Origin: Thiobacillus sp. 63-78
GTDB taxonomy: Bacteria > Pseudomonadota > Gammaproteobacteria > Burkholderiales > Thiobacillaceae
NCBI GenBank assembly: GCA_001899765.1
Contig: MKWM01000050.1
Span: forward strand, 1-57,776
Length of the DNA: 57,776 nucleotides
Reading direction: 5' to 3'
Part shown: piece by piece, positions 9,197 through 50,123 of the stretch
Layout: each line of letters opens with the position of its first letter
Position numbering within the stretch: position 1 is the stretch's first letter
The notes under the pieces: model-generated
What the model was told of the DNA's origin: nothing
Database searches by the model: none
Seen by the model: the letters and a program-made list of their open reading frames with translations, nothing else
Position numbers and translations under genes: made by a program

Positions 9197-10682
9197 CTAG
9201 ATTTTCAACTGGTCCAGCAGCGCGATCCCCCACGCCACCCCGAAGCCGTTGGCGTCGCTCATCACCGCGCCCAATCCGCCCTTGCAACTGTGGCCGGACA
9301 GATCCATGTGCAGCCACGGCGTGTCACCGACGAAGCGCGACAGGAAGCGGGTGGCGAGGATGTGGTCGGCCTCGCCTTCCATGCTGCACTGCTTGACGTC
9401 GGCCACGGTCGAATCGAGCGCGCTGTCGTAATCCTCGGGATAGGGGAAGACGACGATGCGTTCGCCGCTTGCGGTGGCCGCGCGCGAGGCCGAATGGGCG
9501 AGCGCGCTCGAGGTGGCGAACACGCCGGACATGCGGCTGCCGAGCGCGTAGTGCATCGAGCCGGTGAGCGTGGCGAAATCGGCGATCAGCGCGGGCTTGC
9601 TTCGGGCGGCCAGCGTCAGCGTGTCGGCGAGCACCATGCGGCCTTCAGCATCGGTGTGGACGACTTCGATGGTCGTGCCGTTCAATGCCTTGACCACTTC
9701 GTTCTGCCGGTAGGCCTGCGGGCCGATGTGGTTTTCGGCGAGCGCGACCCAGCCTTCCAGCGCGAGCGGCAGCTTCATCCTTGAGGCCGCCGCCAGGATG
9801 CCGAGCACCACCGCCGAGCCGTTCATGTCCTCGTGCATGCCCTGCATGTATTTGGCGGGCTTGAGGTTGTGGCCGCCGGTGTCAAAGCAGATCCCCTTGC
9901 CGACGAAAGCCACCTTCTTCCCCGCCCCCTGACCCCTGACCCCTGACCCCTGATCCCTTTTTCTGTCCCTGATACCTGATCCGCACGATCGCCGCGTCCT
10001 TCGCCGGCGAGCCCTGCGCCACCGCGCAGAACGCGCCGGCGCCCATCTTCTTCAGCGTGTCGAAAGCGTATTCCTCGACCGTCCAGCCGTACTGCCTGGC
10101 CAGTGCCTTGATGCGTTTGCGGTAGACGCCGGGGGTGAGTTCGTCCGGTCCCTGCACGGTGAGGCTGCGGGTGAGCGTGTTGCCCTCGGCCAGCGCCCGC
10201 ACACGGACAAAGCCGCCGGCCGGTTTGTAGCCGAACAGTTGCACGGCCTTGAGCACTGCATCGGTTTTCGATTTGCGCGACGGCAGCGGCACGGCATTGA
10301 CCAGCGCGGCATACGCCGCCGCCTCGGCGGCACGTGCCTTGAATGCTTCCTCGCCGAACACCGCCAGCGTCAGCGATTTCGGATGCTCGGCCATCAGCAG
10401 GGCCAGCGCCTTGCGCATCTGTTCATGGGTCTCGAAGGTGCCGGCATCGGCCTCGATCATGGTGAACACTACGAGCGCACCGCCTGCCAACTGCACCGCC
10501 ACCGGCGACTTCGCCAGTGCGGCGGTCTTGAGATCGCGCCGTTTCATCGCGGCCTTGAGTTCGGTGCTGCCCGGCACATCGGGCAGCGTTTTCGATACCG
10601 GCAATATCATCAAGACATGGCTTGCCGCCTCGATCGATCCGGCAGTGATTTCCTGTTTTTTTTCAATCAGTTCAGGTAGCAC
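9197..10682 (-). pseudogene. M17 leucyl aminopeptidase family gene split by a frame change at a heptamer repeat
   Basis: An M17 metallo-aminopeptidase that would release N-terminal amino acids in the cytoplasm, here in two reading frames. The N-terminal domain runs from a GTG at 10682 (GAAGGA ribosome site) to RIRYQ near 9970, then reads into the repeat and out of frame to a stop at 9882. The catalytic domain resumes in another frame from KKVAFVGKGICFDTGG (about 9919) to 9197 and has all the metal and active-site stretches: VGKG, FDTGG, HEDMNG and the signature HTDAEGRMVL. The switch falls on four exact TCAGGGG copies at 9926-9953. By frame arithmetic, one heptamer fewer would join the two parts in one frame without a stop. 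It may therefore be phase variable, truly broken, or a sequencing error. Divergent from pdhA. Confidence 0.8.
9926..9953 (-). repeat. Four tandem TCAGGGG heptamers inside the aminopeptidase gene
   Basis: On the minus strand four exact copies of TCAGGGG lie head to tail, followed upstream by decayed relatives to about 9980. The block falls between the N-terminal and catalytic domains of the M17 gene. All three minus-strand frames through the repeat are open and give the cyclic peptide SGVRGQG. Confidence 0.92.
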
Positions 10683-10793
10683 GAGCGTTCCTTCAGGGTA
10701 GCGTTTTCTTGATGGTTGGCAGGGTTTGCCGGATAATTGCGCGTTTGAATTTTTCCGGCGCTTTTTCCGAGCCCGTCCATCAAGGGTAACCGA

Positions 10794-11795
10794 ATGAAGA
10801 TTGAAGACAAACAACGCGTGCTGCGCGAAATGGTGTTGCACCGCCGTTTTGAGGAGCGCTGCTACCAGGCCTACATCGAACGCAAGATCGGCGGCTTCCT
10901 CCATCTGTATCCCGGCCAGGAAGCCTGCTGCAACGGCGTGATGGAAGCCGCGCGCCCCGGCCACGACTACGTGATCACCGGCTACCGCGACCACGTGCAC
11001 GCGATCAAGTGCGGCGCCGATCCCAGGGAAGTCATGGCCGAGCTGTACGGCAAGGAAACCGGATCGAGCAAGGGCCGCGGCGGCTCGATGCACATCTTCG
11101 ACGCCGCCCACCACTTCATGGGCGGCTACGCGCTGGTGGGCGGCCCCTTCCCGCTGGCAGCCGGCATCGCCAAGGCGATTCAGCTGAAAGGCGGCGACGA
11201 GATCGCCATCTGCTTTCTCGGCGACGCCGCCAACAACCAGGGGGTGTTCCACGAGACCATGAACATGGCGGCGCTATGGAAGCTGCCGGTACTGTTCGTC
11301 TGCGAGAACAACCTCTACGGCATCGGCACCTCGATCGAGCGCTCCACCGCCGTGGTGCACCAGCACAAGCGCGTCGCCGCCTACAACATCCCGGCCGACG
11401 AGTGCGACGGCCAGGACATCGAAATCGTCTACGAGCATGCGCGCCGCGCGGTCGACCACGTGCGTTCGGGCAACGGCCCCTATTTCCTCGAACTGATGAC
11501 CTACCGCTACCGCGGCCACTCGATGTCCGATTCGCGCGGCTACCGCTCGCGCGAGGAAGAGGAACTGTGGAAGCAGCGCGACCCCATCTTCATCCTGCGC
11601 GACCGCCTGATCGAGGACGGCGCCCTGACCATGGCCGGGTTCGAGGCACTGGAAAAGGAAACCGATGCCTACATCGAGAACGAAGTGATCAAGTTCGCCG
11701 AGGAATCGCCCGAGCCGCGTGTCGAGGATCTCGAAAAATATGTTCTCGCCGACCGTGACACCCAGCTCCCCTGGATCACGGGCAAGGCCGCTTAA
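10794..11795 (+). CDS. pdhA: Pyruvate dehydrogenase E1 component, alpha subunit
   Basis: Alpha subunit of the TPP-dependent E1 of the pyruvate dehydrogenase complex, which decarboxylates pyruvate and passes the acetyl group to lipoyl-E2. The 333-residue protein has GYRDHVHAI, the loop GSSKGRGGSMH, and the TPP-binding stretch GDAANNQGVFHETMNMAALW ending in CENN. The phosphorylation-loop-like YRGHSMSDSRGYRS is also present. Length fits a two-subunit E1, not the fused AceE type. ATG at 10794 follows a weak AAGGGT site. pdhB begins 20 bases after its stop, so they form an operon. It is divergent from the aminopeptidase gene across a 111-base gap that should hold both promoters. Confidence 0.95.
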   Translation: MKIEDKQRVLREMVLHRRFEERCYQAYIERKIGGFLHLYPGQEACCNGVMEAARPGHDYVITGYRDHVHAIKCGADPREVMAELYGKETGSSKGRGGSMHIFDAAHHFMGGYALVGGPFPLAAGIAKAIQLKGGDEIAICFLGDAANNQGVFHETMNMAALWKLPVLFVCENNLYGIGTSIERSTAVVHQHKRVAAYNIPADECDGQDIEIVYEHARRAVDHVRSGNGPYFLELMTYRYRGHSMSDSRGYRSREEEELWKQRDPIFILRDRLIEDGALTMAGFEALEKETDAYIENEVIKFAEESPEPRVEDLEKYVLADRDTQLPWITGKAA

Positions 11796-11815: not shown

Positions 11816-12799
11816 ATGGCAAACATCATGTACTGGGAGGCGATCCAGCGCGCCCACGACGAAGAAATGGCGCGCGATCCACTGGTCATCTGCATGGGTG
11901 AGGACATTGGCGTCGCCGGCGGCACCTACAAGGCCACCAAGGGCCTGTACGAGAAATACGGCCCGCTGCGGGTGATGGACACGCCGATTTCCGAAGGCGG
12001 TTTCACCGGCCTCGGCATCGGCGCCTCCTTCCTCGGCGTGCGCCCCGTCATCGAAATCATGTCGGTCAACTTCGCCTGGCTGGCGATGGACCAGATGTTC
12101 AACTCGGCGGCCAAGGTGCGCTACATGTCGGGCGGCCAGCTGACCGCGCCGTGCGTCTTCCGTTCCGCCGGCGGCGCCGCGCACCAGCTCGGTGCGCAGC
12201 ACTCGGCGCGCATGGAAAAAGTGTTCATGGGCATCGCCGGCCTGCGCGTGGTGACGCCGTCCAACCCCAAACAGGCCTACGGTCTCTTGAAATCGGCGAT
12301 CCGCTGCGACGATCCGGTGTTCATCAACGAACACGAGCTGATGTACAACATGAAGGGCGAAGTGCCGGACGGCGAATACTTCCACCCGCTGGAAGGCTCG
12401 GAAGTCACGCGCTCCGGCACCGACGTCACGCTGTTCGGCTACAACATCTCGGTGCACTGGTGCCTCAAGGCCGCCGAAATCCTCGACAAGCAGTACGGCA
12501 TCTCGGCCGAGGTGATCGACCTGTATTCGCTGTCGCCGCTGGATCGCGCCGGCATCAAGGCATCGGTCAGCAAGACCCACCGCGCCGTCATCGCCGAAGA
12601 AGACGAAGCGCCGGTCGGCGTCGGCGCCGAAGTCATCGCCCTCATCAACGAGGAATGCTTCTTCGAACTCGACGCCGCCCCGGTGCGCGTACATTCCGCG
12701 CTGGTGCCGCAGCCCTACAACCATACGCTGGAAAAGGCGGCGATCCCGGATCACGAGGATGTGGTGAAGGCGGTGTTGAAGATGTTCGGAAAGGCTTGA
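11816..12799 (+). CDS. pdhB: Pyruvate dehydrogenase E1 component, beta subunit
   Basis: Beta subunit of pyruvate dehydrogenase E1; it completes the TPP site with the alpha subunit. The 327-residue protein shows the usual features: VICMGEDIGVAGGTYKATKG with the catalytic Glu, DTPISEGGFTGLGIGA, MDQMFNSAAKVRYMSGGQ and AEEDEAPVGVGAEV. It begins MANIMYWEAIQRAHDEEM after pdhA. A TCAGGG repeat block starts two bases after its stop codon, and the S23-type gene intervenes before the E2-E3 gene, which breaks the normal pdhB-E2 junction. Confidence 0.95.
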   Translation: MANIMYWEAIQRAHDEEMARDPLVICMGEDIGVAGGTYKATKGLYEKYGPLRVMDTPISEGGFTGLGIGASFLGVRPVIEIMSVNFAWLAMDQMFNSAAKVRYMSGGQLTAPCVFRSAGGAAHQLGAQHSARMEKVFMGIAGLRVVTPSNPKQAYGLLKSAIRCDDPVFINEHELMYNMKGEVPDGEYFHPLEGSEVTRSGTDVTLFGYNISVHWCLKAAEILDKQYGISAEVIDLYSLSPLDRAGIKASVSKTHRAVIAEEDEAPVGVGAEVIALINEECFFELDAAPVRVHSALVPQPYNHTLEKAAIPDHEDVVKAVLKMFGKA

Positions 12800-12800
12800 G

Positions 12801-12830
12801 GGATCAGGGGTCAGGATTCAGGGGTCAGGG
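12801..12830 (+). repeat. TCAGGG-type repeat, left arm of an inverted pair
   Basis: A 30-base block made of TCAGGGG, TCAGGAT and TCAGGG units between pdhB and the S23-type gene. It contains the 19-mer CAGGGGTCAGGATTCAGGG at 12805-12823, found again in inverted orientation at 13205-13223 and directly at 50019-50037. Its last unit also provides the CAGGGAG ribosome site for the GTG at 12832. Confidence 0.92.
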
Positions 12831-12831
12831 A

Positions 12832-13203
12832 GTGAACAACTACCGTGATCTGAAGGTCTGGCAGATGGCGATGACGCTGACAGAAGCCATCTACCGGGCT
12901 ACCGAATCCTTCCCCTCCCGGGAAACCTACGCGTTGGCCAATCAGCTTCAACGTGCAGCCGTTTCCATTCCCTCGAATATTGCCGAAGGTCACGCAAGAA
13001 GTTCGACGAAGGATTACTTGCGTTTTGTTTCGATTTCGCAGGGTTCGCTTGCTGAAGCAGAAACGCAGCTCGAACTCGCGCACCGGCTTGGATATATTCC
13101 GGAAGCCGTGTTGCATGGCTTGTTTGAACAGACAAACGAAATTGGTCGCATGTTGCACGGTCTGAGAAGCGCGCTGACCGCAAAACTATCTCCAACCCCC
13201 TGA
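12832..13203 (+). CDS. Four-helix-bundle protein of the S23 (23S rRNA intervening sequence) family
   Basis: A 123-residue all-helical protein with the S23 family pattern NNYRDLKVWQMAMTLTEAIY, FPSRETYALANQLQRAAVSI, PSNIAEGHARSSTKDYLRF and SLAEAETQLELAHRLGYI. The family is best known from intervening sequences in 23S rRNA genes; it is structurally related to Avd of diversity-generating retroelements, and its function is unknown. The GTG at 12832 is preceded by CAGGGAG. It lies inside the pdh operon between pdhB and the E2-E3 gene and is bracketed by TCAGGG repeats in inverted orientation. Base composition is visibly less GC-rich than its neighbours. The placement suggests an inserted cassette (inference). 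Confidence 0.88.
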   Translation: MNNYRDLKVWQMAMTLTEAIYRATESFPSRETYALANQLQRAAVSIPSNIAEGHARSSTKDYLRFVSISQGSLAEAETQLELAHRLGYIPEAVLHGLFEQTNEIGRMLHGLRSALTAKLSPTP

Positions 13204-13229
13204 TCCCTGAATCCTGACCCCTGAATCCT
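13201..13229 (-). repeat. TCAGGG-type repeat, right arm of the inverted pair
   Basis: A 29-base block that starts in the stop codon of the S23-type gene and ends one base before the ATG of the E2-E3 gene. Positions 13205-13223 are the exact reverse complement of 12805-12823. Positions 13201-13225 match, as the reverse complement, positions 50017-50041 in front of psd over 25 bases. Confidence 0.92.
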
Positions 13230-16200
13230 ATGAATCATTACGCCATCACGATGCCCCAGCTCTCGGACACCATGACCGAGGGCGTGGTCGTCACCTGGGA
13301 AAAGCAGGCCGGCGACCGCGTCGAGCGCGGCGATATCGTCGCCACGGTCGAGACCGACAAGGCCATCATGGACGTCGAGGTGTTCAAGGCCGGCTACCTC
13401 GCCGGCCCATTGGCTGAAATCGGCGCGACCATCGCCGTCGGCGCGGCGCTCGGCTACATCACCGACACCGCCGGCGACGTGGCGATTGCCGCCGGCGAAG
13501 TGGTGGCGGAAAAGGCGCAGACCGAGATGATCCCGCACCACGCCGGCACGCCCATCGTGATGCCGCAGCTGTCGGACACCATGACCGAAGGCGTCGTCGT
13601 CACCTGGGAGAAGCAACCGGGTGACGTCATCAAGCGCGGCGATATCGTCGCCACCGTGGAAACCGACAAGGCCATCATGGACGTGGAAGTGTTCCAGGAA
13701 GGCTATCTTTCAGGCCCGATCGCCGACGTCGGCAGCGTGGTCGAGGTCGGCCACCCGATGGCCTTCATCGTCGACGACGCGTCCAAGGCCAACGACACCG
13801 GCGTGACGATTTCCGCGGACCACAAGGTCAAGGACACCCACAAGGTCGCGCCGCCGTCGGCCGACAAACCGGCCCACCTCCCCATTCCCAAGACCGCGCC
13901 CGCTCAGGTGGCCGCTACCGGCGCCATGCCTCCCGTGCCACGCCCGCAGGGCCGTCAGGCCACTCCCTATGCGCGCAAGGTCGCCGGGCAGCTGGGCGTG
14001 AACCTCGCCGGACTCGCCGGCAGCGGCCCGTCCGGCGTCATCGTCTCCGCCGACGTGGCGCGCGCGCGTCCGAGCATGGCCGAAGTCGCCCACGCGCTGC
14101 CGCAGGTCGACGTACCGGGCCAGGGCCGCGCGATGACCTCGATGGAAAAGGCGGTGAGCCACGCGATGACCGCCTCGCTCACGCTGCCGACTTTCAACGT
14201 CACGGTGAACATCAATACCGCCGCGCTGACCGCCGCCGCCAAGGCGAAGAAAGTCTCGGTAACCGTGGCGATCGCCAAGGCCTGTTCGGTGGCGATGGCG
14301 AAGTTCCCGCGCATGAACTGGGCCTATCAGCCGATCGACAAGCTGGTCGAACGCAGCCACCACGACTTCGGCGTGGCGGTGATGTCGAACGACGGCGGTC
14401 TGGTGGTGCCGATCCTGCACGGCATCGAGAAGAAGCCACTGGAAGCGCTGCAGAGCGACTGGACCGGCCTGGTCGAGCGCGCACGGGTGCGCAAGCTGGC
14501 TCCGGCCGAGTATGCCAACCCCACCTTCACGATTTCCAACATGGGCATGCTGGGGGTGTCGCACTTCACCGCGATCCCCACCCCCGGCATCTCGGCGATC
14601 CTGGCGATCGCCGCGAATGGCCCTCAAGGAACCCCGTTCACCATCACCGGCGACCACCGTGTGCTAAACGGCGCCGACGTCGCGCTGTATCTCGCCACGC
14701 TGAAGCAGACCATCGAGGCGCCTGAAGGATGGATTCAGGGGTCAGGGGTCGGGGGTCAGGGAACGGCGGCTGAAGCCGTTGCCGGCGCAACCGCCACCAT
14801 CAGCGCTCCGGTGTCGCCGATTCCCGAAGGCAACTGGGATGTGCAGGTCGTCGTCGTCGGCGGCGGCCCTGGCGGCGAGGACTGCGCGCGCGACCTGGCC
14901 GATCATGGCATCAAGGTCATGATGGTCAACAACGAACCCTTCCCCGGCGGCGAATGCCTGTGGCGCGGCTGCATCCCCTCCAAGGCCTGGCGCGCCGCGG
15001 CGGACAACATCCGCAACCGCGCGCACGACGCCGAGATGGGCGTCGACGGCACGAATACGCCGAAGCTCAACTGGGAACAGGTCGAGAAGCACCGCCGCTG
15101 GGTGCAGACCAGCCGCGGCGAGATGGCGCTGAAAGCCGACAAGGGAATGAAGATCGACGTGCGCGAAGGCTACGGCGAATTCGTCGATACCCACACGCTG
15201 AAGATCACCCCGGTCGAGGGCGAGCCCTATCAAGTGACATTCGGCGCGGCGGTCATCGCCACCGGCGCCCCCGCCTTCGTGCCGCCGATTCCGGGCGCGC
15301 GTGAGAATCTGGCGAGCGGCGGCGTGGTCACCTCCGACACCATCTGGAACCTTGCCGCACCGCCGAAGAGGCTCGGCATCGTCGGCGGCGGCGTCATCGG
15401 CGTCGAGATGGCGCAGATCTTCCGCGACTTCGGCGCCGAGGTGCTGATGCTGGAACGTCAAGACCGTCTCCTGCCCGAAACCGAAGAGGAGATCGCCAAG
15501 CACCTGATCACCCTGCTGGAGAAGGAAATCACCGTTGTCACCAGTGCCGACATCAAGGAAATCGGCGGCACGCCCGGCGCGATGACGCTACGCTACGCCA
15601 ATAAAGAAGGGGTCGAATCGACCTTCGACTGCGAGGTCATCCTGGTGGCCACCGGCAAGCGCCCTGATACCCGCAAGCTCAACCTCGACAAGCTTGGCGT
15701 CGAACTCGACGGCGCCGCGATCAAGGTCAATGCGCATTGCCAGACCAGCGTCCCGCACGTCTATGCGGTGGGCGACGTGATCGGCGGCTACATGCTGGCC
15801 CACACGGCCGCGACGCAGGGCCGCGTCGCGGCCGGCAACCTGCTCGGCCACGCCAGCGTGTACGACCAGGACCGCGACTGCGGCGTCACCTTCTCGCGCC
15901 CGCAGGCCGGCTTCGTCGGCTTGAGCGTCGCGCAGGCCAAGGCCAAGGGTATCGACGCGGTGGAAGCCAAGATGCCGATGAGCATCGACGCCAAGGCGAT
16001 GATCACCGGCGAAACCGAGGGCATGATCAAGCTGGTGGCCGACAAGGCCAGCGGCCGCATCATCGGCGTGCACTACCTCGCCGACCATACCGACACCCTG
16101 ATCGGCACCGGCGTGATGATGGTGGCGGGCGAGATGACGCTGACCCAGGTGGCGAAGGCCATCTTCCCGCACCCGACGCAGACCGAGCTGTTCGGTGAAC

Positions 16201-16247
16201 TGGCGCGGCGGCTGTTAAACCGGCTGCGGCGGACAGCGAAGAAATAA
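13230..16247 (+). CDS. Fused pyruvate dehydrogenase E2 (dihydrolipoamide acetyltransferase) and E3 (dihydrolipoamide dehydrogenase)
   Basis: A 1005-residue fusion. Domains in order: two near-identical lipoyl domains (about 1-78 and 108-185; lipoyl lysines 44 and 147 in ETDKAIMDVEVF), a peripheral-subunit-binding domain (about 244-280, TPYARKVAGQLGVNLAGLAG), the acetyltransferase domain (about 300-498), a linker (501-511), then a complete flavoprotein E3 (about 535-1005). E3 has VVVVGGGPGGEDCARDLADHG, the redox pair Cys576/Cys581 in GGECLWRGCIPSK, a NAD-binding GIVGGGVIGVEMAQ and C-terminal HPTQTE. The usual E2 motif DHRxxDG reads DHRVLNG, so the Asp is Asn480; chloroplast E2 also lacks this Asp. 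The linker is translated from a TCAGGG repeat. The ATG at 13230 directly follows another copy, leaving no normal ribosome site. Last gene of the pdh operon. Confidence 0.93.
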   Translation: MNHYAITMPQLSDTMTEGVVVTWEKQAGDRVERGDIVATVETDKAIMDVEVFKAGYLAGPLAEIGATIAVGAALGYITDTAGDVAIAAGEVVAEKAQTEMIPHHAGTPIVMPQLSDTMTEGVVVTWEKQPGDVIKRGDIVATVETDKAIMDVEVFQEGYLSGPIADVGSVVEVGHPMAFIVDDASKANDTGVTISADHKVKDTHKVAPPSADKPAHLPIPKTAPAQVAATGAMPPVPRPQGRQATPYARKVAGQLGVNLAGLAGSGPSGVIVSADVARARPSMAEVAHALPQVDVPGQGRAMTSMEKAVSHAMTASLTLPTFNVTVNINTAALTAAAKAKKVSVTVAIAKACSVAMAKFPRMNWAYQPIDKLVERSHHDFGVAVMSNDGGLVVPILHGIEKKPLEALQSDWTGLVERARVRKLAPAEYANPTFTISNMGMLGVSHFTAIPTPGISAILAIAANGPQGTPFTITGDHRVLNGADVALYLATLKQTIEAPEGWIQGSGVGGQGTAAEAVAGATATISAPVSPIPEGNWDVQVVVVGGGPGGEDCARDLADHGIKVMMVNNEPFPGGECLWRGCIPSKAWRAAADNIRNRAHDAEMGVDGTNTPKLNWEQVEKHRRWVQTSRGEMALKADKGMKIDVREGYGEFVDTHTLKITPVEGEPYQVTFGAAVIATGAPAFVPPIPGARENLASGGVVTSDTIWNLAAPPKRLGIVGGGVIGVEMAQIFRDFGAEVLMLERQDRLLPETEEEIAKHLITLLEKEITVVTSADIKEIGGTPGAMTLRYANKEGVESTFDCEVILVATGKRPDTRKLNLDKLGVELDGAAIKVNAHCQTSVPHVYAVGDVIGGYMLAHTAATQGRVAAGNLLGHASVYDQDRDCGVTFSRPQAGFVGLSVAQAKAKGIDAVEAKMPMSIDAKAMITGETEGMIKLVADKASGRIIGVHYLADHTDTLIGTGVMMVAGEMTLTQVAKAIFPHPTQTELFGELARRLLNRLRRTAKK
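14731..14761 (+). repeat. TCAGGG-type repeat at the E2/E3 junction
   Basis: About four degenerate heptamers (units ending CAGG, CAGG, CGGG, CAGG) lie inside the fusion gene. They are translated as IQGSGVGGQG, a variant of the SGVRGQG peptide, exactly between the last helix of E2 and the E3 part. Confidence 0.9.
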
Positions 16248-50017: not shown

Positions 50018-50052
50018 TCAGGGGTCAGGATTCAGGGATCAGGATTCAGGGG
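50018..50052 (+). repeat. TCAGGG-type repeat next to psd
   Basis: A 35-base block of TCAGGGG, TCAGGAT, TCAGGGA and TCAGGAT-type units. It includes the 19-mer CAGGGGTCAGGATTCAGGG at 50019-50037, the same as at 12805-12823. It faces an inverted block 39 bases away. Confidence 0.92.
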
Positions 50053-50091
50053 ACGGAACGCAAAGGTCAGCACGGCGCAGCCGCACAAAAA

Positions 50092-50123
50092 CCCCTGACC
50101 CCTGAATCCCGACCCCTGGCCCC
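50092..50123 (-). repeat. TCAGGG-type repeat next to ilvC, inverted
   Basis: A 32-base block whose minus strand holds ATTCAGGGGTCAGGGG and CAGGGGTCGGG units. It lies three bases from the ilvC stop and faces the psd-side block, leaving a 39-base middle with no gene. Confidence 0.9.

Follow-up and report, generated by a model that had tools for sequence, protein, structure and literature searches.

Anatomy of the cassette in the pdh operon

In the window (the whole 57,776-nucleotide stretch of Thiobacillus sp. 63-78 DNA analysed here), pdhB, the PDH E1 beta gene (11816–12799, + strand), and a gene for an E2-E3 fusion (13230–16247, +) were recognised by profile match on either side of one small gene; profile searches matched the neighbours to PDH E1-alpha, E1-beta and E2-E3 models. 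The small gene (12832–13203, +; GTG start, 123 aa) belongs to the S23/23S-IVP four-helix-bundle family, scoring 136.6 bits against PF05635 (cut-off 33.8). The initial annotation was thus right to describe a single S23-type gene that breaks the pdhB to E2-E3 order and is less GC-rich than its surroundings (53.2% versus 63.3%–66.7% in neighbour genes). The closest named record to its product is from a Thiobacillus MAG (92% identity), and two solved structures, 2gsc (XCC0516 of Xanthomonas) and 2rld, to which no function is assigned, fall in the same family by profile (E 7e-41 and 8e-13).

The gene was also said to be framed by a perfect 19-bp inverted repeat, and we found CAGGGGTCAGGATTCAGGG exactly at 12805–12823 (+) and 13205–13223 (−). 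The inverted pair would not be expected by chance: with up to three mismatches this sequence has nine matches in the window and none in any of 100 dinucleotide shuffles. It is nonetheless a slice of a tandem heptamer array and not a unique end of transposon type: both arms of the cassette are built of tandem 7-bp units, TCAGGRN, with opposite orientation on the far side. Repeat scanning and reading place a left array of four units at 12804–12831 (+) and a right array of inverted units at 13197–13224 (−), each including one copy of the 19-mer. The GTG at 12832 stands immediately 3' of the left array and the TGA stop (13201–13203) falls within the right one, so that the S23 ORF and its arrays occupy all the sequence that separates the pdhB stop codon from the start of E2-E3; this stretch is, from ORFs and junction comparison, the whole cassette (12800–13229).

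Wider arms (12799–12833 and 13195–13229; 35 nt, 89% complementarity) enclose the ORF, and the predicted fold of 12790–13240 has a long terminal stem (z −7.1), such as characterizes 23S rRNA intervening sequences (IVSs); Rfam detected no rRNA in the 3.4 kb around the cassette. Short hairpin elements in intergenic DNA together with a candidate driver gene, as here, are also known from REP/RAYT systems and MITEs. Unlike these, the cassette has no transposase, the S23 ORF filling the space between the arrays, and it ends in tandem arrays whose unit depends on class. Pfam and NCBIfam searches matched the S23 protein to no nuclease or reverse transcriptase (RT) family. Its suggested resemblance to Avd of diversity-generating retroelements holds as a distant similarity, but the Avd and bAvd models score below their own cut-offs, and no RT lies beside the cassette as at Avd loci, the sole RVT_1 match of the host genome being on another contig (C67).

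Gene-less and single arrays in the window and host genome

The cassette had been described as compact and as ending in a repeat family seen elsewhere in the window, which three further TCAGGRN-class sites bear out. One is a gene-less paired-array element (50018–50119; arrays at 50018–50052, +, and 50092–50119, −), and two are single arrays, in frame within the E2-E3 linker (14735–14762, +) and at a frame change of an M17 aminopeptidase gene (9926–9953, −). Translated, the former is the stretch that links E2 to E3 in the fusion; a congener (G041) also has arrays, about as far downstream of the start of E2. The M17 gene (9197–11252, −) matches its catalytic domain model with 267.6 bits from profile position 80 on. 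For the stretch ahead of the array, Pfam gave nothing at 1e-10, and this gene may be split or broken by the array.

Across the host genome (G000; 3.2 Mb, 74 contigs), there are 122 TCAGGRN dimers, 62 forward and 60 reverse, versus none for a reversed-pattern control. Reading of 20 fetched stretches yielded 23 gene-less paired-array elements of about 70–150 bp and a few single arrays in addition to the S23 cassette. Gene-less cores frequently hold a GCGGC..GCCGC hairpin, and by eye most elements sit in the gap that runs from the stop codon of one gene to the start codon of the next, a placement based on these flanks and on the gcvH sites described below. Array sites are clustered: among 30 listed, eight neighbouring pairs lie at most 4 kb apart versus 1.07 expected under uniform placement, and 0 of 5000 draws gave as many. 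Five gene-less elements tested for folding gave z from −4.3 to −8.1. Covariation lends the fold no support: in a comparison of 20 gene-less elements of this genome, none of the 16 predicted pairs had changes in both partners, and the consensus did not include the core hairpin. The other two S23 genes of the host have different heptamers (GTGAGTG at L075, AAGTTAC-like at L080).

Flanks of S23 genes across phyla

We compared the flanks of named S23 loci (L141–L220), which by record title span many phyla and include two archaeal (Methanophagales) records; of 80 loci, one in which the S23 motif was not found and five with short flanks were removed, leaving 74. At a periodicity cut of at least 19 of 28, 64 of the 74 have a lag-7 or lag-8 periodic flank on either side, and 41 have both flanks periodic at a looser cut. 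Upstream flanks gave lag 7 in 47 loci, lag 8 in 6 and lag 14, the double of 7, in 31; the downstream counts are 39, 7 and 24. Every other lag from 4 to 13 occurred in at most three loci. Counted as single flanks, 86 of 148 are periodic at lag 7 versus 9 of 144 distal control segments (none at lag 8), and dinucleotide shuffles of the flanks gave 0 of 148 at either lag. Of the 74 loci, 43 have flanks that resemble each other in inverted orientation, compared with one of 65 pairs of distal segments and none of 74 pairs combined across loci; in 10 of the 74, the flanks match in direct orientation as well.

A second set, from the window's phylum (69 loci, less nine in which no S23 was found and one with short flanks; the identical L249 and L250 counted separately), gave a periodic flank in 49 of 59 loci versus 0 of 116 distal segments, with a strand bias in the arrays (G > C in 79 of 85 upstream, C > G in 76 of 84 downstream). 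Similar flanks at S23 genes in other genomes, which the initial annotation had proposed looking for, are therefore the rule; flankless loci, which it had named as evidence to the contrary, are a minority (10 of 74 and 10 of 59 without an array at the cut-off). The repeat unit itself varies from locus to locus. The pdh cassette belongs to a class that is widespread.

Placement at co-directional gene junctions

For 70 named loci, we counted mechanically called co-directional ORFs of at least 120 aa within 200 nt of the S23 gene. Such an ORF ends upstream in 63, starts downstream in 56 and does both in 53, with antisense ORFs around the same loci numbering 25 and 33. Families downstream of the 56 include the carbamoyl-phosphate synthase (CPSase) large chain (five), guanylate kinase, OTCase, RmlD and the lipoyl/E3-binding domain (two each), and RuvB, pyruvate kinase and ATP synthase (one each). 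A CPSase small chain or glutamine amidotransferase lies upstream of S23 at L142, L146 and L176, and S23 at the carA-carB junction recurs in Lysobacteraceae and Ramlibacter.

PDH genes are flanking genes elsewhere as well, with S23 between E1-alpha and E1-beta in a Rickettsiales record (L147) and between E1-beta and E2 in a Chloroflexi record (L186). Conservation of gene and repeats at this exact site in distant genera had been put forward as an argument against mobility; L186 shares the site, but its repeat is different and weak, with lag-7 scores of 15 and 9, below the cut. That distant taxa have S23 at the same junctions suits a preference, functional or for the target, rather than free movement.

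Relation to 23S rRNA intervening sequences

In a genome of the host's family (G288), the S23 ORF of L249 lies inside 23S rRNA (RF02541, 2442.7 bits), bounded, as is that of L250, by TCAGG-type arrays with a long stem predicted; the L249 protein is 31% identical to that of the window. Near-identical L249 and L250 were considered as a recent jump and rejected, since both are copies of one 23S rRNA region and do not differ over 3283 nt. They were the only matches in an exact 23S k-mer scan of 221 loci (201 from S23 matches, overlaps and weak hits included). An S23-encoding 23S rRNA IVS is thus built like the pdh cassette, with a PF05635 ORF in the loop of a long terminal inverted repeat, and differs in location, the cassette sitting in an mRNA operon between pdhB and E2-E3.

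In the accessible part of PMC4990558, heptamers (GACAGAT) are described before the S23 start of the Coxiella IVS, their number varying between strains, RNase III is reported to cleave this IVS in vitro, and XCC0516 (2gsc) is a homopentamer of four-helix bundles. The same part states that the role and origin of rRNA intervening sequences have been unclear since about 1990 and that S23 proteins are without known function, and it describes no general inverted arrays, class turnover or gene-less copies.

Turnover at the pdh and gcvH junctions within the genus

Among 56 genomes of the genus including the host, some of them 70%–90% complete, 48 have a classifiable pdh junction; the eight left out include G066, which has both junction states, one on a contig resembling G013. 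A TCAGG-class (T) S23 cassette occupies the junction in 14 genomes and a CTAGG-class (C) cassette in five, and 29 have no S23 there. On a tree of pdhB and E2 only, with two short rows included, S23 presence changes 16 times, 11 of these forced by well-supported branches (group without S23), and the changes are no fewer than with shuffled labels. Comparison with relatives had been proposed, with uninterrupted junctions in some and the cassette elsewhere in others named as support for mobility. Junctions without S23 do exist (29 of 48), but 26 of the 29 hold other inverted or periodic sequence (inverted arms in 16, or 7-bp periodicity), compared with 0 of 29 for a control stretch of pdhB.

The suggestion of a mobile cassette accordingly stands as to its patchy occurrence (S23 in 19 of 48), but not as to observed movement. 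No clean empty site was found among the 29 S23-free junctions (G043, G020 and G057 fell below the cut), by eye no target duplication was seen at the pdh junction, and no S23 jump was seen across the genus genomes compared; related S23 lineages remain at the same junction across the genus. Allele exchange around the junction was also considered, and the sliding-distance profile was discarded as weak and with the E2 part misaligned. In G003, there is no right array at pdh and the S23 ORF continues in frame into E2, giving an S23-E2-E3 open frame of 1121 codons (L064). S23-free junctions (L088, L092, L310–L312 and others) often carry inverted elements of 9-bp appearance, of the CGCGAAGGA type, perhaps a further class.

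Gene-less elements are similarly placed at gcvH, where an inverted arm (at least 10) or 7-bp periodicity occurs at the 5' junction in 19 of the 21 genomes read and at the 3' junction also in 19 of 21, versus 0 of 21 (arm) and 1 of 21 (periodicity) for in-gene controls. Read by eye, these elements are of T, C, G or 9-bp class, sometimes mixed in one genome, and in several genomes T elements and C elements occupying one and the same gcvH junction have the core hairpin in common but not the arrays. G013 has a T cassette at pdh yet C elements at both gcvH sites.

Cassette class and genome-wide array abundance

Among the 56 genus genomes, genome-wide array abundance can be predicted, for three classes, from the class of S23 cassette that a genome holds. 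TCAGG dimers have a median of 107 in the 14 T-cassette genomes, 17 in the five C-cassette genomes and 11 in the 29 without, and the corresponding medians for CTAGG dimers are 19, 153 and 2. For the G class, assigned to genomes by reading flanks, the median of GTRAGGS is 27.5 in 10 genomes with S23 at the ruvC site (26 in 11) versus 5 in 45 others, with overlapping ranges (one ruvC-site S23 genome has 5, and the 45 others reach 34).

Rank-test p-values treat genomes as independent. In tree-independent pairs, which were drawn over supported branches and averaged over 200 pairings with thresholds picked after the counts were seen, the T class gave 6.8 pairs in the same direction, 0 in the other and 0.2 without difference (p 0.016), the C class 5:0 (p 0.06), and the G class 5.6 in the same direction, 0.1 opposite and 2.2 without difference (median p 0.03, up to 0.375). 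A threshold of 60 was used in the analysis that gave the tree changes and the T and C pairs. Individual genomes depart from the trend: G041 has a T cassette and only 11 T dimers, in G056 the pdh S23 is frameshifted yet 77 T dimers remain, and 24 of 56 genomes lack a PF05635 match although some of these are array-rich (G053 with 84, G057 with 55, G010 with 48 T and 69 C).

The class link also fits a regulatory role in which S23 binds RNA in a class-specific way. The gene-less hairpins would then be its targets at operon junctions, kept with the cognate protein and without selfish spread. The occupied co-directional junctions of core genes, the recurrence of the same junctions in distant taxa and the conserved gcvH sites would suit such a regulator. 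We nevertheless consider it unlikely, given that the array class at one junction changes between congeners, that single arrays lie inside coding sequence (9926–9953 and 14735–14762) and that genomes without PF05635 can be array-rich. These last genomes, together with the many arrays that lack S23, agree with arrays that spread or turn over by themselves (by slippage or gene conversion, or with the help of a different enzyme, for instance a Y1/RAYT transposase), S23 being a trapped passenger; the window protein, as noted, matches no nuclease or RT family, and Xanthomonas GGGAATC heptamers are described, in the part of PMC4692102 available, as generally unassociated with mobile elements. A passenger would not be expected to show class-specific abundance, however, nor does it account for S23 being tied to such arrays in many phyla with differing units, and we regard this explanation as quite unlikely.

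Even less probable, and in our judgement very unlikely, is a retro-element in which S23, like Avd, partners a reverse transcriptase copying the stem-loop RNA. The weak similarity to Avd models and a junction placement suited to an RNA route are in keeping with it, but among the 19 pdh-cassette genomes RVT_1 was found in seven and not in 12, the latter including the single-contig G011 and G055 with 234 T dimers, and a resident RT as a present-day requirement is thereby rejected. At one locus with the look of a diversity-generating retroelement (L325, contig C91 of G061), a weak PF05635 match lies beside an RT and C-terminal sequence is repeated; no arrays were seen around this Avd-like gene.

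A candidate class of IVS-like elements

With close to even confidence, we favour an IVS-like element situated at operon junctions, with an S23 protein that acts on the arrays of the element's class, the mechanism of spread being conjectural. Comparison at the sequence level demonstrates the anatomy, the recurrence across phyla, the placement at co-directional junctions and the same build in a relative's 23S rRNA IVS, as well as, genome by genome, a class-specific tie of array number to the S23 cassette. Such elements consist of a core, either S23-coding or short and gene-less and often with a hairpin, between inverted arrays with a 7-bp (less often 8-bp) unit. In RNA, the arrays may pair into a long stem open to RNase III, as reported for rRNA IVSs, and the element would therefore be tolerated between the genes of an operon. 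The S23 protein may recognise arrays of its own class, as RNA or as a DNA hairpin, and could promote the spread or upkeep of gene-less copies in trans.

A wider generalization is possible, though less likely than not: S23 genes overall would be the gene-bearing forms of selfish elements found across phyla, with inverted short-tandem-repeat ends whose lineage-specific 7- or 8-bp unit is read by S23. Insertion into rRNA would have made some copies rRNA IVSs, and the gene-less offspring would include many of the heptamer repeats between bacterial genes. Should S23 indeed read the class of heptamer carried by its own element, one explanation would cover both a large protein family and some of the intergenic repeats that are so far unexplained.

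The heptamers of Coxiella are already published, and the general pattern of S23 with inverted arrays was not found in print: in searches of open-access literature, we recognised no paper tying S23 genes generally to inverted heptamer arrays. GGGAATC heptamers of Xanthomonas and Nostoc, treated as G-quadruplex repeats in the accessible part of PMC4692102, resemble S23-class arrays in being mostly intergenic 7-bp arrays with conserved positions and 70 and 75 inverted pairs in two species; "s23" and "four-helix" occur 0 times in its text. TAACTGA heptamers are described in Beggiatoaceae in PMC4679880 ("s23" 0 times) and also in PMC4853749 ("four-helix" 0 times), again for the available parts of these texts.

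S23 genes in viral, phage and plasmid records

S23 genes in viral contigs have a periodic flank in 28 of the 31 with flanks, a count that has no distal control. Searches with the window protein found few S23 genes in phage records (1 of 50,697) or on plasmids (33 of 72,556). A pair of Calothrix plasmids with the same S23 was considered as a case of cassette movement and rejected, the shared segment of about 3.5 kb being wider than the cassette alone. On plasmid pNe_5 of Nostoc edaphicum (L360), an S23 gene with GGGAGTA arrays lies between two ribonucleotide reductase genes, on the strand opposite to both.
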